From: a virus
IMG/VR virus record: IMGVR_UViG_3300049893_001309
Location: 1 to 26,382 of that record
DNA: 26,382 nt
Strand: one strand, 5' to 3'
The notes under the pieces were generated by a model, which did not search any database, was not told the DNA's origin, and was given only the letters and a program-made list of their open reading frames with translations. The translations under genes were made by a program, and so were the position numbers. The stretch's first letter is position 1; each line of letters starts with the position of its first letter. Positions 1 to 12,033 of this stretch are shown one piece after another.

Positions 1-1
1 T

Positions 2-628
2 GAAAGCTTCCTTACGTTCAAAGCAGGTTCCGCATTTCCCGCAATGAAGCTCTCGGCCATTGTAGCATGAATAGGTATAGGCCAGGGGAACTTGAAGCTG
101 AGCCCCAAGCCTGCAAATATCGGTCTTGTTCATCGAGAAAAATGGAGCGATGAGCGAGACTTTGCCATCTGTTCCTTGATAGATCGCCTGCCCCATATCA
201 TGAGTAAAGGCTGGGCGGCAATCGGGGTAGATCGCATGATCACCGGCATGATTCGCAATCACCACTCGGCTCGCTTCAAAACTTTCAGCCAAGCCTGCCG
301 CTATCGAAAGCATGATGCCATTCCTGAAAGGAACAACGGTGCTCTTCATCGAAGCGTCGGTGTAGTGACCCTCTGGAATTGGCTCTTTGCTTGATTTCAA
401 AAGGTCCGAGACGAAGAGTTCCTTGACCATGTCAAGTTTGATGCGGCGATGCAGAACGTCATAGAAAGACGAAATATGCTCAGCAGCCCGATATTCTCGG
501 TCATTATGCTTGCTGCCATAGTCAAATGATACAGCCATGACATTCTCGCTGCCATGATTTGCTACCATCTGAGCTAGGGCAACTGCCGAGTCCATACCAC
601 CAGATAACAGAACAACTGCTTCCTTCAT
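2..628 (-). CDS. queC: QueC, 7-cyano-7-deazaguanine (preQ0) synthase, 3' end cut by window edge
   Basis: This is an ATP-dependent PP-loop enzyme that converts 7-carboxy-7-deazaguanine and ammonia to preQ0, the base used for queuosine or, in phages, for DNA modification. I translated the minus strand by hand from the ATG at 628 and found 209 open codons to the edge. Visible motifs are the PP-loop SGGMDS at residues 9-14, VVPFRN near residue 101, AGDHAIYPDCRPAF near residue 127, and the C-terminal zinc cluster SCYN...HCGKCGTCFERKEAF with four cysteines. QueC is usually about 220-230 aa, so only roughly 10-20 residues are missing. The start overlaps the dpdA-like stop as ATGA (625-628), which indicates translational coupling. 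Phage QueC beside a TGT-like protein points to DNA modification rather than tRNA queuosine. Identification is very secure; the downstream use of preQ0 is inferred. Confidence 0.95.
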   Translation of the reverse strand, partial: MKEAVVLLSGGMDSAVALAQMVANHGSENVMAVSFDYGSKHNDREYRAAEHISSFYDVLHRRIKLDMVKELFVSDLLKSSKEPIPEGHYTDASMKSTVVPFRNGIMLSIAAGLAESFEASRVVIANHAGDHAIYPDCRPAFTHDMGQAIYQGTDGKVSLIAPFFSMNKTDICRLGAQLQVPLAYTYSCYNGRELHCGKCGTCFERKEAF

Positions 629-1452
629 TTCTTTGGCCTCCAATAGTCCCATGCGTTGATCATGTGATTAGCTTGATGCTCGCTTGTTACAGCGAGGAAA
701 AAATGACTCTTAAGCTTCAGCCGAATGTCGATCATATATCGGACCCAGGCCCTGGCAGGAATGATCTGAAGCCATCGCTTATTGTCTCCAGCGTTTTTCC
801 ACTGCTCTCTATCGGCAAGCTGAGATGGGTCGCAGCCATGAATAGCCAGGACGCGCTTATGGTTTTCAGATAGGCGCGGAAGGTCATCGTAGGTGAACTT
901 CTTAAGCCATACGCCATTACGATCATAAAGATGGATGGCCCCGAACCGCACTCCCGATGACCAAGATGAGCTATCAAATGAGTATGGCTTTGCCCATGCA
1001 ATAGCATCGGCATTACCGAAACCGAGCAGATGAACATTCCTGCCCCTCGTCTTCTGCATGACACCCTTGACGAAGTTGATCGCTTTTGGGGTTTGAACCA
1101 ATCCACCAATGCCGACTAGGTCGGTCGTTTTGTAGTAGTCATCGAATACTGATGGGTCTTCGCCGCGGGTGAACACAGGGACAGGCTTGAACCCTCGCTT
1201 TAGCATCAGCTCGTAGTTCCGCATCGAGCCATGCGGATCGCCGACGATATCGAGAGCAAAATAACGCCAAGGGGTTATCGGCAGGCTTTCGAGGAAACGG
1301 CAGTAGTCATCCAGGGCAATCGGCTTTCCAGCTTTCCAGGCCGTAAAGGCCCCAGAGTCAACGAATAACCTGGTTTCTGACTCTCTGCGTTTAATTGCCG
1401 CAGCAACTTCCTTTGTGAAGTATGGGTAGGCGACAAGTAGATTTAGCTTCAT
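625..1452 (-). CDS. dpdA: DpdA-like DNA transglycosylase (TGT superfamily)
   Basis: This 275-aa protein belongs to the tRNA-guanine transglycosylase superfamily in the phage DpdA branch, which exchanges guanine in DNA for a 7-deazaguanine. Visible elements are FVDSGAF (residues 30-36), matching the TGT VDSGGF substrate-binding Asp; ALDIVGDP (66-73); VGIGGL (113-118), matching the base-recognition loop; HLLGFG (141-146); and FDSSSW (159-164), whose Asp160 is the likely nucleophile by comparison with TGT. Canonical bacterial TGT is about 370 aa with a CxCxxC zinc site, and no such site is seen here, which is against a tRNA enzyme. I chose the ATG at 1452 over a TTG at 1476: it follows the upstream stop by one base and has GGATGAG before it. 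The subfamily and the exact base inserted cannot be assigned. Confidence 0.82.
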   Translation of the reverse strand: MKLNLLVAYPYFTKEVAAAIKRRESETRLFVDSGAFTAWKAGKPIALDDYCRFLESLPITPWRYFALDIVGDPHGSMRNYELMLKRGFKPVPVFTRGEDPSVFDDYYKTTDLVGIGGLVQTPKAINFVKGVMQKTRGRNVHLLGFGNADAIAWAKPYSFDSSSWSSGVRFGAIHLYDRNGVWLKKFTYDDLPRLSENHKRVLAIHGCDPSQLADREQWKNAGDNKRWLQIIPARAWVRYMIDIRLKLKSHFFLAVTSEHQANHMINAWDYWRPKK

Positions 1453-1453
1453 C

Positions 1454-1996
1454 TCATCCAATGGTAACACCAGCAATATTTAGGTCGTTTATGGCTTTTT
1501 TCAAAGCCCTCTGCACATCGTCCTTATCATCCTTGTGGCATTTGATCTTTATGGTTGCCTCATCAAGACCGGTCATCTCACTATCAAGGTCTTCCATCCT
1601 ATCAAGGTCAGCATTCCATTCCATATCAATTGGTTCAAAGCCAATCTCTTCAATCTCAAAGCTTTCCTCTCGCAAAGCCTGTAAAGTCTTACCTAAAATT
1701 TCCTCGTCCCATGTTGCCAGCTCCGCGGTCCTGTTATCTGCTAATGCAAACGCAGCAGCTTCAAAGCCGGACAGATCAGTGCGTACAACGGAAAGCTTAC
1801 TCCAGCCAAGTTCTTTAGCAGCTTGCAGAGTACCATTTCCTGCTATAACTACGTTATTATGATTGATGACAATCGGCTTCTGCTGACCAAATTTAGCTAG
1901 GCTTCCTTTGATAGCTCGCAAGTTTTTCTCATTGTGAAGTCTGGCATTATTCGGATCAAAGACAAGCTCATCAATCTCAACCATCTCTAGTTTCAT
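1454..1996 (-). CDS. ParB/sulfiredoxin-like N-terminal domain protein, possible DNA-modification partner
   Basis: This 180-aa protein has a ParB/Srx-type N-terminal domain at about residues 1-95: FDPNNARLHNEKNL near the start, then FGQQKPIVI, then VIAGNGTLQAAKELGW in place of the classical GERR box of chromosomal ParB. In known phage and bacterial proteins this variant usually accompanies or is fused to DNA methyltransferases. Here no methyltransferase is adjacent; the next gene is the DpdA-like transglycosylase, one base after this stop. The C-terminal third is acidic and charged (DEATIKIKCHKDDKDD) and I do not recognise it. The ATG at 1996 has AGAGGGA five bases upstream. It is the first gene of the leftward operon. 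A role as DpdB-like partner or sequence-recognition subunit is inference; a generic ParB-like nuclease or regulator is the alternative. Confidence 0.75.
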   Translation of the reverse strand: MKLEMVEIDELVFDPNNARLHNEKNLRAIKGSLAKFGQQKPIVINHNNVVIAGNGTLQAAKELGWSKLSVVRTDLSGFEAAAFALADNRTAELATWDEEILGKTLQALREESFEIEEIGFEPIDMEWNADLDRMEDLDSEMTGLDEATIKIKCHKDDKDDVQRALKKAINDLNIAGVTIG

Positions 1997-2037
1997 AGTT
2001 CCCTCTGACGTTTGGCTATTAGCTTAGGAGTAATTTA
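1997..2037. promoter_or_regulatory. Divergent intergenic region between modification operon and packaging genes
   Basis: This 41-bp gap separates the leftward operon from the rightward structural genes and is the only divergent junction in the window. It holds both ribosome binding sites: AGAGGGA for the ParB-like gene and TTAGGAG (about 2025-2031) for the small terminase. A candidate leftward sigma70-type promoter has a TTGGCA -35 (complement of 2039-2044, inside the terminase start) and, after 17 bases, a weak TAATAG -10 (complement of 2016-2021). I saw no convincing rightward promoter here, so the structural genes may use one inside the ParB-like gene or a phage-specific signal. The promoter call is weak. 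Confidence 0.3.
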
Positions 2038-2547
2038 ATGCCAACAAAAAGACCACCGAAAAAAGGCGCTCCAGTAGGGAGGCCATCAAAGTATAAGCCG
2101 GAATACTGTGAGAAAGTCATCGAGGTTATGTCTCTTGGTTACTCCTTAGCTGCGTTTTGCACACAGATAAAAGTGGGGCGGGATACCGTGTTCCACTGGA
2201 TGCAACAGTACCCAGAGTTTGGCCTAGCTGTCAAAACTGCAAAGGAGGCATCGCAGGCTTGGTGGGAAAGATTAGCAACGGTTGTTGCAACTGGGCAGAA
2301 TAGAACAATCGACGAATCTACAGGAAAACCAAGGAGTTTATATAAAGATGCTCACCCAGGTATGATCATGTTCATGATGGGTAGACGCTTCCCAGATTAC
2401 TATGCAAAGAAAGAAAATATCATTGAGTCTGAATCGAATAGCAGGAAAGAAGCCATCAAGCAAATGATGCCAGAGGAACGAATGGCGTTCATTGCAAAGT
2501 ATCAAAGACTTATACAAGAACTAGCCGAGATGGAAGATGGGAAGTAA
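2038..2547 (+). CDS. terS: Terminase small subunit
   Basis: This 169-aa protein would bind the packaging site on phage DNA and feed it to the large subunit. The N-terminus is basic with a GRPSKY motif, followed by a helix-turn-helix-like segment (GYSLAAFCTQIKVGRDTVFHW, residues about 34-54, first part GYSLAAFCTQ) and then PEF. This is the arrangement of HTH small terminases of the gp1 type. The C-terminal third is charged and helical, fitting oligomerisation or contact with the large subunit. The ATG is preceded by AGGAG at an 8-base spacing. It is the first rightward gene and overlaps the large terminase by 11 bp. Identification rests on family pattern and position. Confidence 0.85.
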   Translation: MPTKRPPKKGAPVGRPSKYKPEYCEKVIEVMSLGYSLAAFCTQIKVGRDTVFHWMQQYPEFGLAVKTAKEASQAWWERLATVVATGQNRTIDESTGKPRSLYKDAHPGMIMFMMGRRFPDYYAKKENIIESESNSRKEAIKQMMPEERMAFIAKYQRLIQELAEMEDGK

Positions 2548-4009
2548 GAGAAAAAAACTAGAGATGGAAATCTACGAAGCCTTATTTGATGATCTCAAGG
2601 GATTGGCTAGAGATAACCTATTAGCCTTTGCTACCTATATAAATAAGTATTACACAATCAACTGGCATCATCGAGTCATCTGTGAAAGGCTTTCACGACT
2701 GCCCTACGAAAAGCAAAAGCGCATCATGATATTCATGCCGCCTCAGACTGGTAAAAGTGAAATTGTATCGAGGACGCTCCCAGCCTGGATGCTGGGCATA
2801 AACCCAGATCTACGCATCATCCTTGCATCATACTCAGCCGACCTAGCAATGGGCTTCTGTCGAGATGTTCAGAGGATACTTTGCTCGGATGCTTATGAGG
2901 ATATTTTTCCTGGCACAAGCATATCGCATAAAAATATAGTTAAAAGTGGTGGATATAAGAGAACCGCGAATCATTTCGAGGTCATTGACGCTAGAGGTTC
3001 AATGTTCAGTGTCGGCGTTGGCGGCTCAACTACTGGAAAGTCAGCCGATATATTCATCATTGACGACCCTTTCAAAGACCTACAGCAAGCCTATTCCCAA
3101 ACAACCAGGGCAAGGGTAATCGACTGGTATAACTCAGTCGCGCAAACAAGACTCACATTAAACGGCCATATCATCCTCATGCACACTCGCTGGCATGAAG
3201 CAGACCTTGCTGGCTATCTACTTGCCGAGGCCCAAAGAGATCCAAAAGCAACTCAATGGGAAGTGATATCCATTCCTGCGATTGGTGTTGAACATAACCC
3301 ATTCAAGCATCCAGCGGATAAAAGACGTGAGGGCGATCCTCTATGGCCTGAGTTCAAGGGCGATATTGAATACCTGGAAACCGTTCGCAAGTCAGTTGGC
3401 GAAAAGGTTTGGTCAGCTCTATACCAGCAATCGCCGACGATTGAGGGCGGGAATATAGTCAAAGAAGCTTGGCTCAAATACTATTCCAGTCTGCCTTTCG
3501 ATATAGCATCCAAACGAGCACATGATCTGATTCAAAGCTGGGATTTAACCTTTAAAGAAACTGGAACAAGCTATGTAGTAGGCATTGTGATAGCCAAGCA
3601 TGGCGCTGATTTCTATATAGTTGACTGCTATCGAAAGAAAGCTGATATCGTTCAAACGATGGAAGCTATTAGGTCTATGACTAAGAAGTACCCAGATACC
3701 TCTATACTCATAGAGGACAAAGCAAACGGTCCAGCCGTTATTTCTATGTTGAAATCACAGATATCAAGAGTCATACCAGTTAGGCCATCCTCTGGTAAAG
3801 ATGAGCGGCTACATGTTGTGGCGCCATTATTTGAAGCTGGAAATGTTCACTTCCCAAGCTTTGCGCCTTGGACTAAAGAGGTTATCCATGAACTGCAATC
3901 GTTTCCAAATGGAGCCAATGATGATATAGTTGACGCTATCAGCCAGGGATTACAGCACTTTAACAAATTATCAGGTTCACGACGACTGGAGGCTATGGCT
4001 CGTTTATGA
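2537..4009 (+). CDS. terL: Terminase large subunit, ATPase/nuclease
   Basis: This 490-aa packaging motor pumps DNA into the prohead and cuts concatemers. The N-terminal ATPase has Walker A PPQTGKS (residues 68-74) and Walker B IFIIDDP with Asp176-Asp177. The C-terminal RNase H-like nuclease has candidate metal-binding acids in QSWDLTF (Asp336), LIEDKANG (Glu393/Asp394) and ANDDIVDA (Asp462/463/466). Length and domain order are typical, and no truncation is seen. The ATG at 2537 overlaps the small subunit gene by 11 bp with GGAAG immediately before it; an internal ATG at 2564 (MEIYEALF) is a possible alternative start. The stop overlaps the portal start as ATGA. The packaging strategy cannot be read from the sequence. 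Confidence 0.95.
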   Translation: MGSKRKKLEMEIYEALFDDLKGLARDNLLAFATYINKYYTINWHHRVICERLSRLPYEKQKRIMIFMPPQTGKSEIVSRTLPAWMLGINPDLRIILASYSADLAMGFCRDVQRILCSDAYEDIFPGTSISHKNIVKSGGYKRTANHFEVIDARGSMFSVGVGGSTTGKSADIFIIDDPFKDLQQAYSQTTRARVIDWYNSVAQTRLTLNGHIILMHTRWHEADLAGYLLAEAQRDPKATQWEVISIPAIGVEHNPFKHPADKRREGDPLWPEFKGDIEYLETVRKSVGEKVWSALYQQSPTIEGGNIVKEAWLKYYSSLPFDIASKRAHDLIQSWDLTFKETGTSYVVGIVIAKHGADFYIVDCYRKKADIVQTMEAIRSMTKKYPDTSILIEDKANGPAVISMLKSQISRVIPVRPSSGKDERLHVVAPLFEAGNVHFPSFAPWTKEVIHELQSFPNGANDDIVDAISQGLQHFNKLSGSRRLEAMARL

Positions 4010-5445
4010 AAAAAAAACTTAAAAGCATAAAACGCACTGTTACAGATGGATGGGCCAATGTGCTATCTGGCATTGGAACTAACCTTGATAAGCAATCCTA
4101 CGCTCGACCGATGTGGGTTGGATTGGATAAAGGAAATGCCGAGTCGATCTTTGCAGCCGACGATATCGGATCAAAGATTGCCTCGATAGTGCCAGACGAT
4201 GGAACACGCGAAGGTATTGATTGGATTATCCCGTCCGATAATAGTGGCGATATTACCAAGTTTTTAGAGAAAGAGTTCGACCGCCTGCACGCTTGGAAGC
4301 AGATATCATGGGCATGGACACTTGCGCGGGTCTATGGTGGAAGCCTGATCTATCTATCTTGCGATGATGGAAAGGATGCGTCAGAACCACTTGATCTTAA
4401 CAGCATGAGACGTGTAAACTCATTAGTAGTATTTGACCGTTGGCAATTTCATGTTGATCAATCCGATATCATAACGAACCTCGATGATCCCGACTTCGGG
4501 AAGCCAGCCTATTATAATTTTCGTGTCGGTTCTGGTGCTTGGAACGACGAAACCATCCTGCGTATCCACTACTCCCGCGTGCTTCGGTTTGATGGACAGA
4601 GATTGCCAATGCGTCTTTACGCTCAAAATGGATATTGGCACGATAGTATCTATGCGAAGCTTTATAAGTCCATACGAAACTATTCAACCAGCTATGACTC
4701 TGTTGCTACAATTATGACCGACTTCAATCAGCCTGTTTTCAAGGTTGAGGGCTTAGCCGAAGCTCTTGCGATGGATCAGGACCAATTGGTGATGAAAAAA
4801 ATCGAGACTGTGAACCTTTCTCGCTCGGTTGCCCGTGCGGTTATCCTCGATAAGCAGGATGACTTTAGCACCGTTGGGGCATCGGTCGGTGGCCTTGCTG
4901 AACTCTTACGAATGACGACTGATCGCCTCGTCTCTGGTTCAGGCATTCCACATACACGCCTGCTTGGAGAATCACCCTCTGGCCTCGGTGCCACAGGACG
5001 CAGTGAGCTAAACGACTATTACGATATGGTCAAAGCCGCTCAAGAGCAGAATTTGCGCGGACCTTTGGATTACCTGCATCAACTGTTTTTCCTGCAAGAC
5101 GATGCGCCTATCATGCCAGAGGGGTTTACTTTCGTTTTCAGGCCGCTTTACCAAACGGATGAAGCGACCAAGATTGCTACGCGAAAAGTCCAAGCTGATA
5201 TTGATGCGGTCTATATTGACAAAGGCGTCTACGATCCATTGACCGTAAGAAAGTCTCGCTTTGGCAGTGGCGAGTATAGCTTTGAAACGACAATAGAGCA
5301 TGAAATGCTCGAGTCAACCGAGTTCGAGGATTTAGAGGAACGAACCGAAACCCCAGACGAACCAGACGATACACTCGAACAAGAGGGAAAAAATATTTTA
5401 GCCGAGGGTCTGATAAATGGCGAAGAGGAAGTCATCATCCGTTAA
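4006..5445 (+). CDS. Portal protein, DUF1073 type
   Basis: This 479-aa protein would form the dodecameric portal ring at one capsid vertex, through which DNA enters and to which the neck attaches. It matches the DUF1073 portal family: AADDIGSKIASIVPDDGTRE near the N-terminus, WAWTLARVYGGSLIYLS near residue 104, and GESPSGLGATGRSELNDYY near residue 325. The C-terminal about 60 residues are very acidic. Database entries for this domain can carry the label anti-CBASS Acb1-like; the gene position between large terminase and minor head protein and the full-length portal architecture argue for a structural portal. Its ATG overlaps the terminase stop (4006-4009). Confidence 0.9.
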   Translation: MKKKLKSIKRTVTDGWANVLSGIGTNLDKQSYARPMWVGLDKGNAESIFAADDIGSKIASIVPDDGTREGIDWIIPSDNSGDITKFLEKEFDRLHAWKQISWAWTLARVYGGSLIYLSCDDGKDASEPLDLNSMRRVNSLVVFDRWQFHVDQSDIITNLDDPDFGKPAYYNFRVGSGAWNDETILRIHYSRVLRFDGQRLPMRLYAQNGYWHDSIYAKLYKSIRNYSTSYDSVATIMTDFNQPVFKVEGLAEALAMDQDQLVMKKIETVNLSRSVARAVILDKQDDFSTVGASVGGLAELLRMTTDRLVSGSGIPHTRLLGESPSGLGATGRSELNDYYDMVKAAQEQNLRGPLDYLHQLFFLQDDAPIMPEGFTFVFRPLYQTDEATKIATRKVQADIDAVYIDKGVYDPLTVRKSRFGSGEYSFETTIEHEMLESTEFEDLEERTETPDEPDDTLEQEGKNILAEGLINGEEEVIIR

Positions 5446-6415
5446 AACATCGGATATTCAAAAGCGGTATGATATCGACTTTGCCCGAATGGAACGCGAG
5501 TCAAAGGAAGCTTACAAGCTTTACTTTCAGCTTTTCATCGAGCAGGTATTGCCATATCTGAAAACTCTTGTTCCTGGAACGACGCTTGATGCAAGTGAGG
5601 CTGATCAGAATAGGCTTCGTCAGCTACTTCAGCAAATTACCGGAGCAATGCAGTCGCAGTTCAACCTTGGTAAGCTGCAAAAAACGAGCATGGAAACATT
5701 TCAAAACATACGCTTAAAGAGCCAGAAGAATTTTGAAAAAACCCTACTCCAGCAAATAACTGTGGCGGCTAATCAGAAAAACCTCACGGGCGCAATCGAG
5801 GCATCGAAAGGTCTTGTAGCTGGTATGTCGGCTGGAATGTCGCAAGACCTAGCAGCAATTCAGACGAGGATGGCGAATCAAACTGGTCTTGACCTATTTG
5901 TCCAGCAGGAAGCAGGGACAGGCACCGCTATCGCTTCGCGTGTTCTCAATGGAGTATCAGCAGGGGAACGGTGGGAAAGTATCGCTAAGGCTGTTTTAGG
6001 AACGTCAAACCCCAAGTCAGGGGAAGCAATCGTTCGGGATGCTCCAAAGGATAGCGAGGCGCGAAAGGTGCTGAACAAGGCCAAGTTCATAGCTCGTAAC
6101 GCTACGTCCACAGTCATCGGAGAATACGATAAGCGGCAGTCAGCCGAAGCCGGTATTGAAATCTATATGTGGCAGACAGCCGAGGACGAAAGGGTTAGGC
6201 CAACGCATCGAAGTTTGAATCAGAAAGTTTTTGCTTGGAACCCTAGCACTAAGGCACCAACCTCGATACAATACGGCAAAAGCTCCTATGTGAAAGGCAG
6301 GGTGATTCCGCAAGCGAGTGACCCAAGCTATAACGGTGGAGCCCCAACCTACCCTGGACAACCTTGGAACTGCCGATGTGTCGCGGTTAACTTGATTCAG
6401 GGAATAGACTTTTGA
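5417..6415 (+). CDS. Minor head / head morphogenesis protein, Mu F or SPP1 gp7-like
   Basis: This 332-aa protein belongs to the portal-associated minor capsid family, a few copies of which join the prohead with the portal. The N-terminal two thirds are helical and charged. The C-terminal domain carries the family signature: [19 protein letters not shown] around residues 253-271, then [18 protein letters not shown] near the C-terminus (conserved His, CxC and proline motif). It overlaps the portal gene by 29 bp; the ATG at 5417 is preceded by GAGGG eight bases upstream, inside portal coding sequence, suggesting coupled translation. No ADP-ribosyltransferase or peptidase fusion is seen. Confidence 0.88.
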
Positions 6416-6423
6416 GGGTTTAT

Positions 6424-6615
6424 ATGCCACTATCACTCGGTTACAGCCAGGAAACCATAAGTGAAAACATAGCGAAGCTCATCAGAGAGGGCAGGCCCAA
6501 GGAACAAGCAGCAGCGATTGCTTATTCTCAAGCTAGAAAAGCCGCTCGCAAAGCTCGTAAAGAATACCGAGCCAAGATCATGAAGGGTCTTAGGCCAGAC
6601 ATGAACGGTGAATAA
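6424..6615 (+). CDS. Small basic phage protein (63 aa) of unknown function
   Basis: The product is short and lysine/arginine-rich. It starts [16 protein letters not shown] and continues with an [17 protein letters not shown] segment; this pattern of SxExISxNIxxLxxEG(K/R)PxxQAxAIA recurs in small phage proteins in head gene clusters, whose function I do not know. I chose the ATG at 6424, with GAGGG six bases upstream, over a TTG at 6412 overlapping the minor head gene. The C-terminal half is strongly basic ([13 protein letters not shown]) and could bind nucleic acid, which is inference only. Confidence 0.75.
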
Positions 6616-6616
6616 A

Positions 6617-6790
6617 ATGCCAATTTATCGCGCTTACAAAATCATCAATATGTATACCACCAAGGAGTACGAAGCTCCGAACGAGGGTCAGGCAAGAGCA
6701 ATGGCTTTGAGTGACCTTGGTGCTGTCGATAAGATCGAGGAAGTACCAGAGCCGCTGCCAGAACCGGATAGCGATACTCCAGCGACATGA
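6617..6790 (+). CDS. Small hypothetical protein (57 aa)
   Basis: I do not recognise this protein. It begins MPIYRAYKI, a motif followed by a short predicted beta/alpha unit (YEAPNEGQARAMALSDLG) and an acidic, proline-rich tail (PEPLPEPDSD). The ATG at 6617 lies one base after the preceding stop and has GGTGA upstream; a GTG at 6608 is less likely. Its stop overlaps an ATG of the next gene (ATGA, 6787-6790). Codon use and tight spacing on both sides support it as a real gene in the head operon. Confidence 0.68.
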   Translation: MPIYRAYKIINMYTTKEYEAPNEGQARAMALSDLGAVDKIEEVPEPLPEPDSDTPAT

Positions 6791-6798
6791 GGGGAAGC

Positions 6799-7896
6799 AT
6801 GAAGCAAATTGTAAGACATGACTACGCAGTCTTAGGTGATGGAAGCGCAAAGCTTCTGCCTAATGGCTTTCTGCCTGTCGAGGCAAACCTCACACGAACT
6901 GGAATTTTCACCTACTTCGATATGGCTCCAGATGGAACGGTGAAACTCCAAAGGCAGCTCAGGCATCCTGATGAAGTGTTTGCCGATGAGACGATGGCAT
7001 CGCTTCATGGACTTCCTGCAACCAACGATCACCCGCCCGTTAACCTTCTCAATTCTGATAACGCTAAGGATTGGATAGTTGGCTGGCAGGCAGATACTCC
7101 GATGCGTATTCAGCTTGACGATGCTACGAACGAAAGTCCAGACTATATCAGGACCAAAGTAGTTTTCTTTGATCGCAAGACTATTGACCAGATTCAAACT
7201 GGGCAGAAGCGGGAAATCAGCCTTGGCTATACTTGCCTGCTTGATGAAACTCCAGGCGTGTATAACGGGCAACCTTATGATGCGGTCCAAAGACAAATTC
7301 GCTATAACCACTTATCCCTAGTCGATAAGGCTCGCGGTGGTCCGGCTTGTAGAATCCTCAAAGACTCACAAGCAGAACTCCATGCGCTTTGTGATGGGAT
7401 ATCAAACTTTGAGGAACAAGCAATGGATCAGCCAGTAGTGAACACGGACGCAGAAGAACTAAAAACACTTAGAGATGCACACGAGCGCTTAAAGGCCGAG
7501 CGTGATGAACTCTCGGAAAAACTCAAGGTCGCCCAATTCCACGACGCTGATTCATTTGCATCAGCCGTGAAAAAACGGGTTGGTCTGGAAATCAAGGCTC
7601 AACAAATCCTTGGACCTAAAGTGGTCCTCAGTGATTCCAGTGAGCGAGAAATCATGGAGCAGGTGATCAAGACAATCCGACCTGAGTTGGACTTGTCTGG
7701 CCGCTCCGATGAATATGTAGCCGCTCGGTTTGAAATCGCGTGCGAGGATGCTTTGCGACCTGCGCAGCCACGACGAGTCGAGACTGCAATGTCCAAAGCG
7801 GTGGTTGGTGATAGCGCCGAAGATTCTTGGCAAACAGTTTATGCCAAGGCTCGCGCTAAAATGCAGGAAGAAGCACGCAACGCTTACAAAGCTTAA
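6799..7896 (+). CDS. DUF2213 prohead protease fused to scaffold-like domain
   Basis: This 365-aa protein has two parts. Residues 1 to about 185 match DUF2213, a family related to herpes/HK97-type prohead maturation proteases; candidate catalytic residues are His78 in TNDHPP and Ser141 in GQKREISLGY, followed by NHLSLV. The remainder is charged and helical with a coiled-coil stretch (LKTLRDAHERLKAERDELS near residue 215), typical of a scaffold region. No separate scaffold gene is present before the capsid gene, so this protein probably supplies both activities, the scaffold being removed by self-cleavage. I prefer the ATG at 6799, with GAGGGG four bases before it, over an ATG at 6787 that overlaps the previous stop. 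Confidence 0.83.
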   Translation: MKQIVRHDYAVLGDGSAKLLPNGFLPVEANLTRTGIFTYFDMAPDGTVKLQRQLRHPDEVFADETMASLHGLPATNDHPPVNLLNSDNAKDWIVGWQADTPMRIQLDDATNESPDYIRTKVVFFDRKTIDQIQTGQKREISLGYTCLLDETPGVYNGQPYDAVQRQIRYNHLSLVDKARGGPACRILKDSQAELHALCDGISNFEEQAMDQPVVNTDAEELKTLRDAHERLKAERDELSEKLKVAQFHDADSFASAVKKRVGLEIKAQQILGPKVVLSDSSEREIMEQVIKTIRPELDLSGRSDEYVAARFEIACEDALRPAQPRRVETAMSKAVVGDSAEDSWQTVYAKARAKMQEEARNAYKA

Positions 7897-7917
7897 TAAA
7901 CGATAGGAGTAATTGGT

Positions 7918-8376
7918 ATGGCTCAGACTACTTATGGTTCAGCAATGGCAATTGGTGTCTCTGGGATGCTCGCTCAACAGTTTGCCCTTCGGCAAATTGA
8001 TAGCTGCATGGTTGCGGAGACGAACGGAGTTAGCCCAGGACAAGTGGTAAAATGGGATGCGAATGGCAATGTAGTGAAGGTTGCCGCTGGTTCTGATAAG
8101 TCAGCAGGCGTCGTCATCGCTACCTATTACGGATGCTCATGTCTCTGTGGACCAGTAGCAGCCACATACGCTAAGGGTGAATGCGCACCAGTTATGCGTT
8201 ATGGCCGCGTTTACGTTCAAGCTGCCGAAGCAGTCGCTATCGACGATCCAGCTTACTACGTTATCGCAAGCGGTAAGTTCGGCAAAACATCGACCAGCAA
8301 TGTTGATGTTAAAGGCAAGTTTGTTACTGCCGGTGCTGCCGATGCAATCGTTTGTCTTGAACTGATCTGGGAATAA
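7918..8376 (+). CDS. Head decoration / structural cement protein
   Basis: This 152-aa protein lies between the protease-scaffold and major capsid genes, the usual place for a decoration or cement protein that stabilises expanded capsids. The sequence is rich in Gly, Ala and Val and has the small beta-domain pattern of such proteins: SPGQVVKWDANGNVVKVA, then SAGVVIATYYG, GECAPVMRYGRVYV and ending in a beta strand (IVCLELIWE). It resembles annotated structural cement proteins of the Gp24/DUF2190 kind. The ATG is preceded by AGGAG at about eight bases. Position and fold pattern support the role; the family assignment is less sure than that of the neighbours. Confidence 0.7.
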   Translation: MAQTTYGSAMAIGVSGMLAQQFALRQIDSCMVAETNGVSPGQVVKWDANGNVVKVAAGSDKSAGVVIATYYGCSCLCGPVAATYAKGECAPVMRYGRVYVQAAEAVAIDDPAYYVIASGKFGKTSTSNVDVKGKFVTAGAADAIVCLELIWE

Positions 8377-8402
8377 AAAATTAAAATTTTGGAGATATAG
8401 CT

Positions 8403-9338
8403 ATGACGGCATTTAGACAATTTGTGAACCTCGACGCTGATCTGTCCATGTTTTTGTGCTCGGAAATCGAGTACGTAAAGTCTCGAATGATGGACCAGAA
8501 GTACCCAGAATTGCTCGCTCGCCGCCTGTTCCCTGTAAGCTATTCGTCGAACCCAGCAGCCGCTTACATCGTGGTGCATAACTATGATCAAGTTGGCTCT
8601 GCTAAGATCATTAACTACTATGCAAACGATCTGCCCAACGTGGCATTGTTCCGTTCTGGAACTGACACTCGTAAGATCTATGCTATCGGTGTGGCGTTTG
8701 GTTACTCGGTGCAGGATATCCGCGCAGCCCGTGCAGCAGGTATCGGCCTTGAGCAGCGTTTAGCTAACGTAGCCCGTTATGCTTATCTGCAAAAGGAAAA
8801 TGATCTGGCGTTGCTCGGTGATACTAACCTTGCCATTCCTGGCTTCGTAAACAACCCTAACACCAACAGCGTAACCCTAGCCAATGGTGCATCTGGTGGG
8901 TCGAAAGCTTGGTCTACGAAGACTCCTGACGAGATTATCAAGGATATCGCGGACACAATCGCAGCGATCCGAACCGCCAGTAATGGTGTCGAAACGCCTA
9001 ATACTTTGCTTCTTCCAGAGGCACAGTATACAAAGATCGCAACGACTCCACGCGCAGCGACTTCTGATGTAACCATCCTTGAGTTCGTCTTGGCATCTAA
9101 CCCATTCCTGACAGCAGTTATCCCTGTCTATCAGCTCAAGGGTGCTGGCGCTTCGGCAACCGATGTCATGATCGCTTATGATCGTAACCCAGACAAAGTA
9201 ACCCTTGAAGTTGCTCAAGACTTTGAAGTCTTGCCAGCTCAAGAGAAAGCTTTGATGTATGAATTTCCTTGTCATGGACGGACCGCTGGCGTGGTGCTTT
9301 GGGCTCCGAAGTCCGTGGCACAAGCTAACGGAATCTAA
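8403..9338 (+). CDS. Major capsid protein, DUF2184 type
   Basis: This 311-aa protein forms the icosahedral shell with an HK97-type fold. It matches DUF2184 capsid proteins: an N-terminal arm, then YPELLARRLFPVS, a YDQVGSAKIIN strand region, the ARAAGIGLEQRLANVARYA spine helix (residues about 107-125), a TPNTLLLPEAQYTKIAT segment, and a C-terminal FPCHGRTAGVV element. Neighbouring protease, cement and adaptor genes agree. The ribosome binding site TTGGAGATAT lies a few bases before the ATG. There is no sign of a second capsid gene or Ig-like extension. Confidence 0.92.
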   Translation: MTAFRQFVNLDADLSMFLCSEIEYVKSRMMDQKYPELLARRLFPVSYSSNPAAAYIVVHNYDQVGSAKIINYYANDLPNVALFRSGTDTRKIYAIGVAFGYSVQDIRAARAAGIGLEQRLANVARYAYLQKENDLALLGDTNLAIPGFVNNPNTNSVTLANGASGGSKAWSTKTPDEIIKDIADTIAAIRTASNGVETPNTLLLPEAQYTKIATTPRAATSDVTILEFVLASNPFLTAVIPVYQLKGAGASATDVMIAYDRNPDKVTLEVAQDFEVLPAQEKALMYEFPCHGRTAGVVLWAPKSVAQANGI

Positions 9339-9662
9339 ATGTTTGTAGAAAACACTCAAGCTCGTGCTGTCTATTGTGGTGGTATTCTTTTGTATCCTGG
9401 CATCAATCGCGTGACCGATGCTCAGAAAGCCGACTTGGAAAAGAATGGCTACTGGGCTGGTCTTGAGGAACTTGTCGAGTACGGAGATATCAAGTTCCAT
9501 GAGGAAAAGCTTTCGGCTGCTGTTGTAGCTAAAACCTACAATATCCAATTGCTCGAATCATGGCTTGATGATGCGCCTCGACCGCTTCGCAATGCGATAG
9601 ATAAGCAGCTTAAGGAAATGAAAAAGGTACCAGAAGGCAGTCAAACAATAACGATTTCTTGA
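9339..9662 (+). CDS. Hypothetical protein (107 aa) following the major capsid gene
   Basis: I do not recognise this protein. The ATG directly follows the capsid stop with no gap, and the upstream ACGGAATCTA is only a weak ribosome binding site, so translation may depend on reinitiation after the capsid gene. The N-terminal half has a small beta pattern (ARAVYCGGILLYPGINRVTD), and the C-terminal half is helical and ends in a short hydrophilic tail. Small proteins at this position in related phages may be accessory capsid or head-completion proteins, but nothing in the sequence proves it. Confidence 0.65.
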   Translation: MFVENTQARAVYCGGILLYPGINRVTDAQKADLEKNGYWAGLEELVEYGDIKFHEEKLSAAVVAKTYNIQLLESWLDDAPRPLRNAIDKQLKEMKKVPEGSQTITIS

Positions 9663-9669
9663 GGTTCTT

Positions 9670-10158
9670 ATGAGTGCTCTCGATGATGTGACTCCAGCTT
9701 ATGTCGATGTGGTAACGAACTATTTGTTTACTGCAAGGACTAGCGATGCGAATGAGTTTCCCATCGTTCGAGAACTCGCTAGCACTTTCATGAACTCGTC
9801 TGTTTGGCCTTACGAGAAGTACAAGCTTGGGATAGCCTTGCTCATGGGTCATTATTATCAGCTCTGGGGTGTTTCGGCAGCCCAGGCTGGTTCATCTGGT
9901 GGTTTGGTTCCAGGCATAGATAATACTGTGGCTGGACCTGTGACGAGTGAGACAGTGGGTAACGTATCACGGAGCTTCGGACATAGCAGCAGCTCTGCTA
10001 GCTCTGCTTCGATTGGAATACCTACCGATTGGCTGATGCTAACAAACTTTGGGAAGCAGTGGTTGCTGCTTCTTAAGTCGTTCAAGTCGGTTCCCTCGGT
10101 GACGGGGGAACTCTTTTGCTGTCCACCAGTGAAGCTCCACTGTCCTAGTTATCCTTAA
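9670..10158 (+). CDS. Head-tail adaptor protein, DUF4054-like
   Basis: This 162-aa protein fits the DUF4054 adaptor family, which binds under the portal and starts the neck. It shows a helical N-terminal half (residues 1-75, including WPYEKYKLGIALLMGHYYQL), the family loop GPVTSETVGNVSRSF near residue 97, and a C-terminal NFGKQWLLLLKS helix. A serine-rich low-complexity stretch (SSSSASSAS) lies between the last two. The C-terminal 25 residues are unusually Cys/Pro-rich. The start is preceded by TTGAGGTTCTT. It begins the neck block after the head genes. Confidence 0.77.
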   Translation: MSALDDVTPAYVDVVTNYLFTARTSDANEFPIVRELASTFMNSSVWPYEKYKLGIALLMGHYYQLWGVSAAQAGSSGGLVPGIDNTVAGPVTSETVGNVSRSFGHSSSSASSASIGIPTDWLMLTNFGKQWLLLLKSFKSVPSVTGELFCCPPVKLHCPSYP

Positions 10159-10168
10159 AGGAGTTTTT

Positions 10169-10378
10169 ATGTCTAATTGGTCAATTAAAACGAAAGAGAT
10201 AGTTGACGGCCAGACTGTCGTTCGTGGCTATGAGTTTTGGGCACTCGATTACGAGGCCGCTTTGAATCGTAGCTGGCACCTTGATGGTGTTGCCACCGAA
10301 ATCAAAAACAAGGATAAGCCTAGCGAAAAGCATGATATCGGTGCGAAAACCTGGAGCGGTGGAGGTACTAACCCATGA
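10169..10378 (+). CDS. Small hypothetical protein (69 aa) in neck gene block
   Basis: This small hydrophilic protein is not recognised. It starts MSNWSIKTKEIVDGQ, has several aromatic residues (YEFWALDYEAALNRSW) and ends in a Gly-rich basic tail. A strong ribosome binding site (AAAGGAG) lies six bases upstream of the ATG. Its stop overlaps the next start as ATGA, so it is coupled to the following 57-aa gene. A structural or chaperone role in neck assembly is only suggested by location. Confidence 0.68.
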   Translation: MSNWSIKTKEIVDGQTVVRGYEFWALDYEAALNRSWHLDGVATEIKNKDKPSEKHDIGAKTWSGGGTNP

Positions 10379-10548
10379 AGTATGAAGTCAACGGATTTGA
10401 CTATGTTGCTGGCGTTACAGTTCTGACGCCTGAAGTTTTCGAGGGTGATAGCGAATTGGAATGTCTTTTAAAAGCTCAGGAAAAGCTTGGGTCGATTGGG
10501 CCTTATAAGCGTTTACCTGACGATACCAAGGCCGATGCTGGGAGTTGA
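10375..10548 (+). CDS. Small hypothetical protein (57 aa), short gene in neck block
   Basis: I found this by reading the gap between two larger genes: an ATG at 10375 opens a 57-codon frame to TGA at 10546-10548. It begins MKYEVNGFDYVAGVTVLTP and ends in KRLPDDTKADAGS. The start overlaps the previous stop (ATGA), and the stop lies two bases before the next ATG, so it fills the gap precisely, which is the main evidence that it is real. The product has a short beta-rich first half and a helical, Lys-rich second half. Function is unknown. Confidence 0.7.
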   Translation: MKYEVNGFDYVAGVTVLTPEVFEGDSELECLLKAQEKLGSIGPYKRLPDDTKADAGS

Positions 10549-10550
10549 TA

Positions 10551-11015
10551 ATGCTGCACTGGATAATACCGTCGTGGTGTCAGGAAACCGTTACAATGAA
10601 ATGGTTTCAGAACTGCCAGTATTTTTCCGGTCGCTGGGAATATGGAACGCTGCAAGAAAAAAACATCACGGCATCGGTCCAGAACCCAGCCTCTAATCTT
10701 CGCCAATTCAATGGTGAAGGCACGCAGGACATAGAAAATCTCGTTCTCTTTACGAACGAGGATACTATTCAGCTCATCCAAGCTGGCGGTCAGGATAGCG
10801 TGTTTTTTGAAATTAGGGGTAAGCTTTGGTTCATGACTGCTTGGGAACGATGGAACTATTTGATGCCTCACTATCGGGTAACGCTGGTTGGGCAAAATAT
10901 GCTACCGTTCCCACCATCGAATATGCCGAATTACATTGATGCGCAGTATCTGACCGATGAGGCGCTGGTGATCCTTACCGATGAGGCTTTAAATAAATTG
11001 GTGCGAGGCTGGTAA
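10551..11015 (+). CDS. Neck / head-closure-like protein
   Basis: This 154-aa protein has the pattern of small neck or head-completion proteins: ITASVQNPASNLRQF near residue 41, then a beta-rich core with TQDIENLVLFTNEDTIQL, DSVFFEIRGKLWFM, and W....YLMPHYRVTLVGQ. The ITASVQP-like box followed by short barrel strands is known from phage head-closure and collar proteins. I chose the ATG at 10551 (GGGAG six bases upstream) rather than a TTG six bases earlier. The last stop base is shared with the next start (TAATG). Placement between the adaptor and tail completion genes supports the role. Confidence 0.62.
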   Translation: MLHWIIPSWCQETVTMKWFQNCQYFSGRWEYGTLQEKNITASVQNPASNLRQFNGEGTQDIENLVLFTNEDTIQLIQAGGQDSVFFEIRGKLWFMTAWERWNYLMPHYRVTLVGQNMLPFPPSNMPNYIDAQYLTDEALVILTDEALNKLVRGW

Positions 11016-11524
11016 TGGGTGTCAAGCGGACAAAAAACAAAGTTAACGAAGCGTTTCTAAAAACGCTCGTTGGCCGTCCGTTTGAAATCCGAGTCGGTAT
11101 TATGAGCGACCCAGATGGGACAACGGTAAAGGGAACCGACAAAAAAAAACCATCGCACTCAGAGCGTGGCGCAAAGCGTAAGCCAAGAGGCAGAAACGCA
11201 AGACCTTTGACAGTTGCAGAAGTCGGTAGCTTTCATGAGTTCGGCACTCGAAAGATTCCTAAAAGATCGTTTCTAATTTCCACGTACAAGCGAAAACGAA
11301 ATGACTGGACCGAGGCTTTTATAAAGCTGGTCCAAAATTCTGTGGACGAACAGACCTACCGTCAAGCCCTTTTAAAATATGGCGCTCTCATGCAGCGAGA
11401 CGTGCGCCTAACCTTTACAAACAATAATTGGAAGCCCTTAAAACATCGCTCCGGCACACCATTGGTAGACACAGGGCAATTGAGGCGGTCTATCGGCTAT
11501 AGTGTGAGGGAGATCAAAAAATGA
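11015..11524 (+). CDS. Tail completion / neck protein, HK97 gp10-like
   Basis: This 169-aa basic protein carries two hallmarks of the gp10/virion-morphogenesis family: SFHEFGTRKIPKRSFL (residues about 70-85) and TPLVDTGQLRRSIGY near the C-terminus. Such proteins form or complete the ring joining head and tail. A Lys/Arg-rich loop (KKKPSHSERGAKRKPRGRN) precedes the first motif and may be disordered. The start overlaps the upstream stop by one base (TAATG) and the stop overlaps the next ATG (ATGA), indicating tight coupling in the neck operon. Confidence 0.82.
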   Translation: MGVKRTKNKVNEAFLKTLVGRPFEIRVGIMSDPDGTTVKGTDKKKPSHSERGAKRKPRGRNARPLTVAEVGSFHEFGTRKIPKRSFLISTYKRKRNDWTEAFIKLVQNSVDEQTYRQALLKYGALMQRDVRLTFTNNNWKPLKHRSGTPLVDTGQLRRSIGYSVREIKK

Positions 11525-12033
11525 AAAAATGGGCAGAAATTCAATACGCAATACGCCAAGGCGTAATAGCAGCCGGTAGCAATACCGAGGTCATTTACTG
11601 GTATCCTGATGCGCCTCGTCCTCGTTTGCCTTACACAGCAATCGAGTTTGTATCATGGGGACCAGTTATCAATGATTGGTTTACACTCGAAAGCGCATGG
11701 GATGCTTCCAATCCTGGAGCATATCGGCAATATGGATTTAGGGAGCTGAATGTCAGACTTCATTGGTTTGGCAGCGAAGCTTACATTGAAGGCGCACGCT
11801 GCGCTTCGGGCTTTGAAAAGCTAACCGTGCGCGAGACGATGAGTCTTAACAATTCCATCGCAATCATGCGACAAGGTGAGGTTGTTCTAAGCTCTGAAAT
11901 AGTCGAGAATAGCTACGAGCCACGAGCCGAAATGGAACTCGTTCTTTCGATAGCTCTGCAAGACGGTAGCGATATAGATGGTGTTGGCTACTTTGATAAA
12001 GTCGATCCGATACTTTGGATAAACAAACCATGA
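11521..12033 (+). CDS. Tail terminator / neck terminator protein
   Basis: This 170-aa protein sits immediately before the sheath gene, where the tail terminator is normally encoded. Features include an N-terminal helix, PDAPRPRLPYTAIEF (residues about 29-43), a pattern common in neck terminators, and a C-terminal strand region EPRAEMELVLSIAL. It resembles the gp12-type neck terminator family of myophages. It would cap the tube and sheath when the tape measure length is reached. Family recognition is moderate; position is strong. Confidence 0.72.
   Translation: MKKWAEIQYAIRQGVIAAGSNTEVIYWYPDAPRPRLPYTAIEFVSWGPVINDWFTLESAWDASNPGAYRQYGFRELNVRLHWFGSEAYIEGARCASGFEKLTVRETMSLNNSIAIMRQGEVVLSSEIVENSYEPRAEMELVLSIALQDGSDIDGVGYFDKVDPILWINKP

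Follow-up and report, generated by a model that had tools for sequence, protein, structure and literature searches.

A ParB–DpdA–QueC operon beside viral terminase genes: a probable cassette for replacing guanine in phage DNA

A modified guanine in DNA is a known phage route around bacterial DNA-cutting enzymes. We consider here a compact group of three genes, for a ParB-like protein, a DpdA-like DNA-guanine transglycosylase and QueC, at the left end of a stretch of viral DNA that we call the window: the entire IMG/VR record IMGVR_UViG_3300049893_001309, 26,382 bases long. Phages with the closest described systems include CAjan, mycobacteriophage CRB2 and Rosebush, the last of which we take to belong to subcluster B2. 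By its gene content the operon, completed from a longer contig as described below, belongs to the second group of Hutinet and colleagues (Rosebush, CAjan), and its gene order is that of CRB2. Phages with this gene set are predicted by those authors to carry 7-cyano-7-deazaguanine (preQ0) or 7-amido-7-deazaguanine (ADG), and their paper gives the deoxynucleoside dPreQ0 as about 28% of G in Rosebush and about 32% in CAjan (PMC6884629), which agrees with the statement in an earlier note on this DNA that phages with such genes carry preQ0 or related bases.

How does the locus compare? With the CRB2 and subcluster B2 cassette it shares ParB, DpdA, QueC, QueD, QueE and FolE in the same order beside terminase genes; the Rosebush order is taken from a remark in the CRB2 paper likening open reading frames (ORFs) 1-6 to the subcluster B2 phages, together with the assumed B2 membership. 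The differences are that the CRB2 DpdA is just about 25% identical to that of the window, that the window operon is divergent from the terminase genes, and that the CRB2 genome is 72 kb, against 37.7 kb for the related contig G001. Since the same neighbours recur in phages with only about 25% DpdA identity, the gene grouping is not a matter of chance. Hutinet's second group is characterized by DpdA with FolE, QueD, QueE and QueC, the gene set found in the G001 stretch L002, and by no recognised amidotransferase. In CAjan, by contrast, the genes are ordered differently and no ParB was found near dpdA, and the window DpdA lies in a separate clade. In bacterial dpd islands, one of which (L127) was located among 369 genomes searched, a ParB-superfamily gene also stands directly beside DpdA and there is a YaaA-related hydrolase; the phage ParB, however, falls outside the DpdB family by model, and the phage DpdA has 275 rather than 423 amino acids. 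None of the restriction genes DpdD-K was named among the phage proteins scanned against PADLOC, no phage-wide search for DpdD-K having been made. The tRNA-guanine transglycosylases (TGTs) share the fold and the catalytic aspartates, but the phage DpdA has no zinc motif and is about 90-110 residues shorter.

The genes of the window operon are:

1454..1996, minus strand: ParB-like protein, operon gene 1, 180 amino acids; phrog_620, with ParB/Noc/KorB and sulfiredoxin fold matches
625..1452, minus strand: DpdA-like DNA-guanine transglycosylase (predicted), 275 amino acids, ATG at 1452; phrog_887, motifs and fold
2..628, minus strand: QueC (7-cyano-7-deazaguanine synthase), 209 amino acids here, ATG at 628, the C-terminus lost at the window edge

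We think it very probable, judging from these genes and their relatives, that the operon serves post-replicative replacement of guanine in phage DNA, by way of preQ0 and DpdA, and protects that DNA from restriction. The layout is as tight as the earlier note described. On the minus strand the ParB stop at 1454 and the DpdA start at 1452 leave a gap of 1 bp, and the DpdA end at 625 and the QueC start at 628 produce a 4-bp ATGA overlap. The three assignments made there also stand. QueC is certain from its family matches (PF06508, 2.4e-58; TIGR00364 above cut-off), and DpdA matches the PHROGs family phrog_887, named ‘queuine tRNA-ribosyltransferase’ (8.1e-30). The ParB-like protein matches phrog_620 (2.8e-37) and, as a model, the ParB/Noc/KorB and sulfiredoxin folds, while remaining under the cut-offs of Pfam ParB_N (21.4 vs 26.3 bits) and NCBIfam parB_part (31.3 vs 58.45).

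The window DpdA finds no match in Pfam or NCBIfam and is not recognised by PADLOC. In an alignment of 39 sequences, the window protein and 38 relatives from viral contigs, D32 (in DSGAF), D68, G116-G117, H141 and D160 (in DSSSW) are invariant in 39/39. The TGT-type motifs DSGAF, LDxxGD, GGL and DSS are present, also in an alignment to 12 DpdAs drawn from 11 named phage records. By motif we take the invariant residues to correspond to the pair of catalytic aspartates in TGTs, a correspondence likewise supported by alignment to 7ui4, a solved DpdA that inserts preQ0 into DNA. The AlphaFold2 model is confident (pLDDT 93.5, pTM 0.91). In VIA-align it matches 2ash (Z 14.6, root-mean-square deviation 3.1, 231 residues) and 7ui4 (Z 14.2, deviation 3.4, 236 residues), and 50/50 of the rows listed are TGT-family or DpdA proteins. 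A search of PDB sequences with the single DpdA sequence gave nothing meaningful; the DpdA profile reached 7ui4 as its sole match, a weak one (E=0.0053), and no tRNA enzyme. The same profile matches the DpdA of the bacterial dpd island with E=3.1e-8 over 78 columns. The zinc site of the tRNA enzymes has the form CxCxxC...H; no CxCxxC occurs in the window DpdA, and with two cysteines in the whole protein that site is missing. Because the TGT/DpdA motifs and fold are kept and the zinc motif is missing, the protein is best interpreted as modifying DNA with preQ0. Against one of the two outcomes that the earlier note had named as contrary to its proposal, an active-site-dead DpdA acting on tRNA, stand the intact catalytic motifs and the missing tRNA zinc motif.

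A further point concerns the class of DpdA. The DpdA2 class is described as lacking a conserved histidine, H196 of phage 9g (PMC6884629). The H141 column, also occupied by histidine in the alignment with CAjan DpdA, probably corresponds to 9g H196, as judged by position in an alignment from which 9g itself is absent. With H141 present, identification as a DpdA2 was rejected.

Where does the preQ0 come from? The window itself contains none of QueD, QueE and FolE, as the earlier note stated, and the scan of six window proteins named no amidotransferase or reductase, the remaining ones having been read by eye only. The viral contig G001 (37.7 kb; classed as linear by IMG/VR) aligns to the window over its full length as a single block, 98.8% identical, and on that similarity is the same species as the window phage, so that the window is a fragment of a longer phage genome. 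Both termini of G001 match one place in a second contig, and it is therefore probably near complete. On its stretch L002, past the left edge of the window, we find:

L002 10825-11493, same operon: QueC, complete, 222 amino acids; Pfam QueC 6.2e-59
L002 11483-11920, same operon: QueD; Pfam PTPS 8.1e-28
L002 11917-12558 (start taken from the translation): QueE; phrog_2076, QueE-like, 2.9e-28, the Pfam match being to radical SAM only
L002 12555-13124: FolE; Pfam GTP cyclohydrolase 5.2e-62
L002 15417-15839: DUF6884 protein, 140 amino acids, outside the window and 2.3 kb past FolE; PF21818 2.9e-26

QueC, QueD, QueE and FolE follow one another with overlaps of 4 to 11 bp, and thus the complete preQ0 set and DpdA lie in one same-strand operon. 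The guess that queD, queE and folE would be found left of base 1, the first of the earlier note's two alternatives, was correct, as this same-species contig shows. The 222-aa QueC carries no extra domain in Pfam. QueF was not found in G001, where the FolE gene alone cross-matches (17.7 bits vs a cut-off of 27.3), and the proteins scanned from L002 and from L097, another stretch of G001, include no ArcS-type Pfam match, no search for ArcS by name having been made.

The scheme that we propose treats the three window genes as the upstream half of a modification operon. FolE, QueD, QueE and QueC would convert GTP to preQ0. By analogy with the TGT mechanism, DpdA would become linked covalently to the DNA at its catalytic aspartate, excise guanine and insert preQ0, with the ParB-like protein most likely helping it on DNA as a clamp, a targeting factor or a nucleotide-driven subunit, as might the ParB-superfamily DpdB. 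The product, dPreQ0, or dADG if the DUF6884 protein acts like DpdC, would block host restriction. What the analysis shows is the gene content, the operon layout, intact motifs, the fold and the conserved ParB-DpdA linkage; action on DNA, the nature of the base, the part played by ParB and the protection are predictions.

The proposal of the earlier note is thus supported, with an addition on the final base: the motifs, the fold and the missing zinc site support DNA modification, and the DUF6884 gene allows ADG in place of preQ0 as the end product. DpdC is described as hydrolysing dPreQ0 to dADG (PMC12839542), and DUF6884 has been named together with dpdC (PMC11888242). The presence of a DUF6884 gene, possibly related to that of DpdC, in the same phage, and on the second phage contig G002, raises a serious possibility, though one to which we give less than an even chance, that the protein hydrolyses the preQ0 nitrile after DpdA insertion so that the DNA finally carries dADG. 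A profile of 7 DUF6884 proteins matches the DpdC of the dpd island (E=7.4e-6, probability 84%, 77 columns), the PADLOC DpdC match has 4.2e-6, and in L018, L068, L078, L110 and L123 a DUF6884 gene sits among the cassette genes. Other observations point away from this role. The best PADLOC match is PDC-M57A (1.9e-23), not DpdC; the protein has 140 amino acids against the 310 of the L127 DpdC, to which the match is partial only; and 2.3 kb separate the gene from FolE, which puts it outside the tight operon. DUF6884 occurs in only 10 of 121 stretches (93 loci, 25 bacterial or archaeal genome loci and 3 more from G001 and G002), and in a search of 15 records was found in G001, G002 and CRB2 only, the CRB2 copy being about 17 kb from dpdA. 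More widely, 140 phage records match DUF6884, 116 of them Mycobacterium phages; the 19 of these among the matches listed are 40-42 kb in size, and none of the 19 is among the DpdA records listed. For one DUF6884 member the Pfam entry has its authors suggesting DNA repair.

The ParB-like gene stands between dpdA and the packaging genes, which run the other way:

1997..2037, no strand: intergenic, 41 bp by ORF coordinates, between the divergent modification operon and packaging genes
2038..4009, plus strand: terminase small and large subunits, divergent context genes; phrog_309 4.4e-20, phrog_38 1.4e-113

One might think, therefore, that it is an ordinary partition or packaging-region gene which lies beside dpdA by chance; the window ParB does border the terminase genes, and ParB-like matches occur in 579 of 50,697 phage records irrespective of DpdA. 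We consider this unlikely, for the linkage to DpdA is extensive. It was scored in 93 loci (80 viral contigs, 12 annotated phage records and the window; 4764 ORFs searched), the contigs being the best 80 of 516 by similarity to the window DpdA and so leaning toward its clade. DpdA loci supplied the seeds for the ParB, DpdA and Que models, each of which went through one iteration. Counting as adjacent a gene on the same strand with a gap of at most 150 bp, ParB adjoins DpdA in 68/93 loci, upstream in 62 and downstream in 6; it is not there in 21, among them L005, scored as lacking ParB with the gene one gene off, and 4 loci, kept in n, end too near DpdA to judge. By set, adjacency holds for 62/80 contigs, 5/12 phage records and the window; after clustering the DpdAs at 90% identity, 40 of 63 clusters are adjacent, 20 not and 3 undecided. 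Of the 70 ParB matches, 68 adjoin DpdA; the two others are that of L005, with one gene in between, and an additional copy in L073. The use of DpdA-adjacent copies as model seeds biases this count. In the 25 loci with ParB, DpdA and the large terminase subunit TerL, the median gap of ParB is 0 to DpdA and 4.5 kb to TerL, with ParB on the terminase side of DpdA in just 7/25; on these gap and side statistics the notion of a plain terminase-linked gene was rejected.

The DpdA tree tells a similar story. It holds 61/93 rows, without the 90% duplicates, edge loci and proteins shorter than 170 amino acids, and its support values are from the Shimodaira–Hasegawa-like approximate likelihood-ratio test (SH-aLRT) only. 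The window clade comprises 24 dereplicated rows (SH-aLRT 100), every one except the window from a viral contig and none a named phage record, and ParB is upstream in 24/24. The ParB label changes 4 times on the tree, against a shuffled mean of 17, and in the CAjan-like DpdA group ParB is found in none. Over 33 loci and 10 gene pairs the distance correlation is highest for ParB-DpdA (rho 0.61, partial 0.36). In bacterial and archaeal genomes ParB adjoins DpdA in 11/25 loci, counting L103 (152-bp gap) and a weak match in L115. By its conserved position, then, the ParB gene is a partner of DpdA and not a bystander, and the terminase genes are context outside the modification system.

Is the partner a DpdB? 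The CRB2 paper suggests ORF1 as a DpdB homologue. In the L127 island DpdC, DpdB, DpdA and a second DpdB stand consecutively (3456-7858); the two DpdBs on either side of DpdA are distinct, 35% identical. Judged by sequence, the phage ParB has the position of DpdB and belongs to the ParB superfamily, yet is not DpdB by family; filing it as DpdB was rejected, as the DpdB family model does not find it. ParB domains are described as fused to DNA methyltransferases and as accompanying another phage base-modifying enzyme (PMC12783734), and a general helper role of ParB in DNA modification would fit these associations. Most likely, on our analysis, the ParB-like protein assists DpdA on DNA as DpdB would.

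Several findings weigh against the reading of the operon as a preQ0 cassette with a ParB-type helper. The DpdB model PDLC02811 finds 0/9 phage records at E<=1, the window ParB, when scanned against PADLOC at E<=10, matches no DpdB model, and the phage ParB profile meets the two L127 DpdBs weakly (E=2.2e-4, probability 45%), in register at the GxxR box. In the GHxR box the R found in most aligned relatives is replaced by T in the window ParB. The ParB-FolE distance correlation (0.56, partial 0.30) is close behind that of ParB-DpdA. CAjan makes dPreQ0 and no ParB was found within 7 kb of its dpdA, so not every DpdA depends on ParB. Foldseek alone gives no DpdA match at E<=0.001 and ranks unrelated folds first, which leaves the TGT match resting on VIA-align and the motifs. 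Finally, no experiments on the IMGVR_UViG_3300049893_001309 phage were found in the openly licensed literature.

Two further alternatives fare worse. That the cassette has decayed or fallen silent, leaving virion DNA unmodified, is very improbable: the window QueC is cut, at the contig edge, whereas the six genes are all open in L002, with the expected motifs on reading the translations, and over the blocks holding the cassette genes identity to the window is 99.6% in L002, 94.4% in L004 and 92.6% in L003. The least credible is a role in host tRNA, in which extra preQ0 and a TGT-like enzyme would raise queuosine for translation; the TGT fold, the annotation of many phage homologues as queuine tRNA-ribosyltransferase and the suggestion of such a role by Hutinet and colleagues for phages that have the pathway and lack DpdA speak for it, and it was rejected as the main role given the missing zinc motif and DNA-type relatives, with 7ui4 and no tRNA enzyme reached by the profile, dpdA linked to a ParB-type gene, related phages with the same gene set modifying DNA, and QueA, QueG and QueH reported by Hutinet and colleagues as absent from the viruses analysed (PMC6884629).

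In itself the operon is an ordinary, if well-supported, DNA-modification cassette. What appears to be new, relative to the openly licensed literature, is the DpdA clade, its near-constant pairing with ParB and the accessory genes of sister phages, though earlier descriptions of the pairing, or of the QueF-acetyltransferase cassette, may exist. Why do most of the related DpdAs examined travel with a small ParB-like gene, and those of the CAjan type not? CAjan modification sites are given as GA and GGC (PMC8306585). If it is true that ParB sets the site or amount of DpdA modification, this would help to explain why replacement is partial and motif-bound, at about 30% of G, and the pair would offer a compact means of putting 7-deazaguanines into DNA. 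We suggest, tentatively and expecting that it may well prove wrong, that the DpdAs of this large clade are two-part enzymes with a small dedicated ParB-type subunit, a counterpart of DpdB from outside the DpdB family, and that the last step has diversified among preQ0, ADG by way of DUF6884 in the window phage, preQ1 by way of QueF, and, in sister phages, N-acyl-preQ1 by way of QueF together with an acetyltransferase.

The accessory genes of relatives suggest DNA bases perhaps not yet measured. QueF is found in 28/121 stretches and, save in L015, immediately follows DpdA (27 stretches); a GNAT acetyltransferase is found in 11/121, with QueF also in 11/11. Within the window clade 8 of the 24 dereplicated rows have QueF and 4 the acetyltransferase; these carriers are related phages, and hence the acquisitions represent few independent events. 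In sister phages QueF lies between DpdA and QueC, as at L034 3055-3905 (PF14489, 4.6e-33) and in L029, L048, L052 and others, and in three loci looked at the acetyltransferase comes immediately after QueF. From these genes we predict preQ1, and perhaps N-acyl-preQ1, in the DNA of the sister phages; we know of no report of N-acyl-preQ1 as a DNA base. In 45/121 stretches there is a small gene resembling phosphoribosyltransferases, with Pfam matches under cut-off or no Pfam match; it lies between QueD and QueE at L034 5642-6061, L029 7331-7714, L048 4563-4958 and L022 13155-13577. At L021 4234-4983 an S-adenosylmethionine (SAM) methyltransferase (PF13847, 1.2e-20) is inside a cassette in which the model did not find QueC. 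Two DpdA genes per cassette are seen in L006, L103, L104, L106, L107 and L093, which are actinobacterial phage or genome loci and one viral contig; such paired DpdAs possibly serve two sequence motifs.

Some minor observations concern the setting of the operon. With just 41 bp between the divergent operons at window positions 1997-2037, the promoters may extend into coding sequence or be located elsewhere. Rightward of this gap come the terminase genes and a portal gene. Megablast of window positions 1-12000 against phage records gave no match; the 12 best phage matches of the terminase have 37-40% identity and come from Staphylococcus, Proteus, Faecalibacterium, Listeria and Aggregatibacter phages. 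On G001, L097 431-3405 encodes Gp157, an ERF recombinase, a single-stranded DNA-binding protein (SSB), a VRR nuclease and, with a Pfam match under cut-off, a protein resembling metalloproteases. The proteins scanned included none named as a DNA polymerase, consistent with modification following host-driven replication. A cassette of this type is also held by a metagenome-assembled genome (L100) titled Granulosicoccus, presumably of the Gammaproteobacteria.

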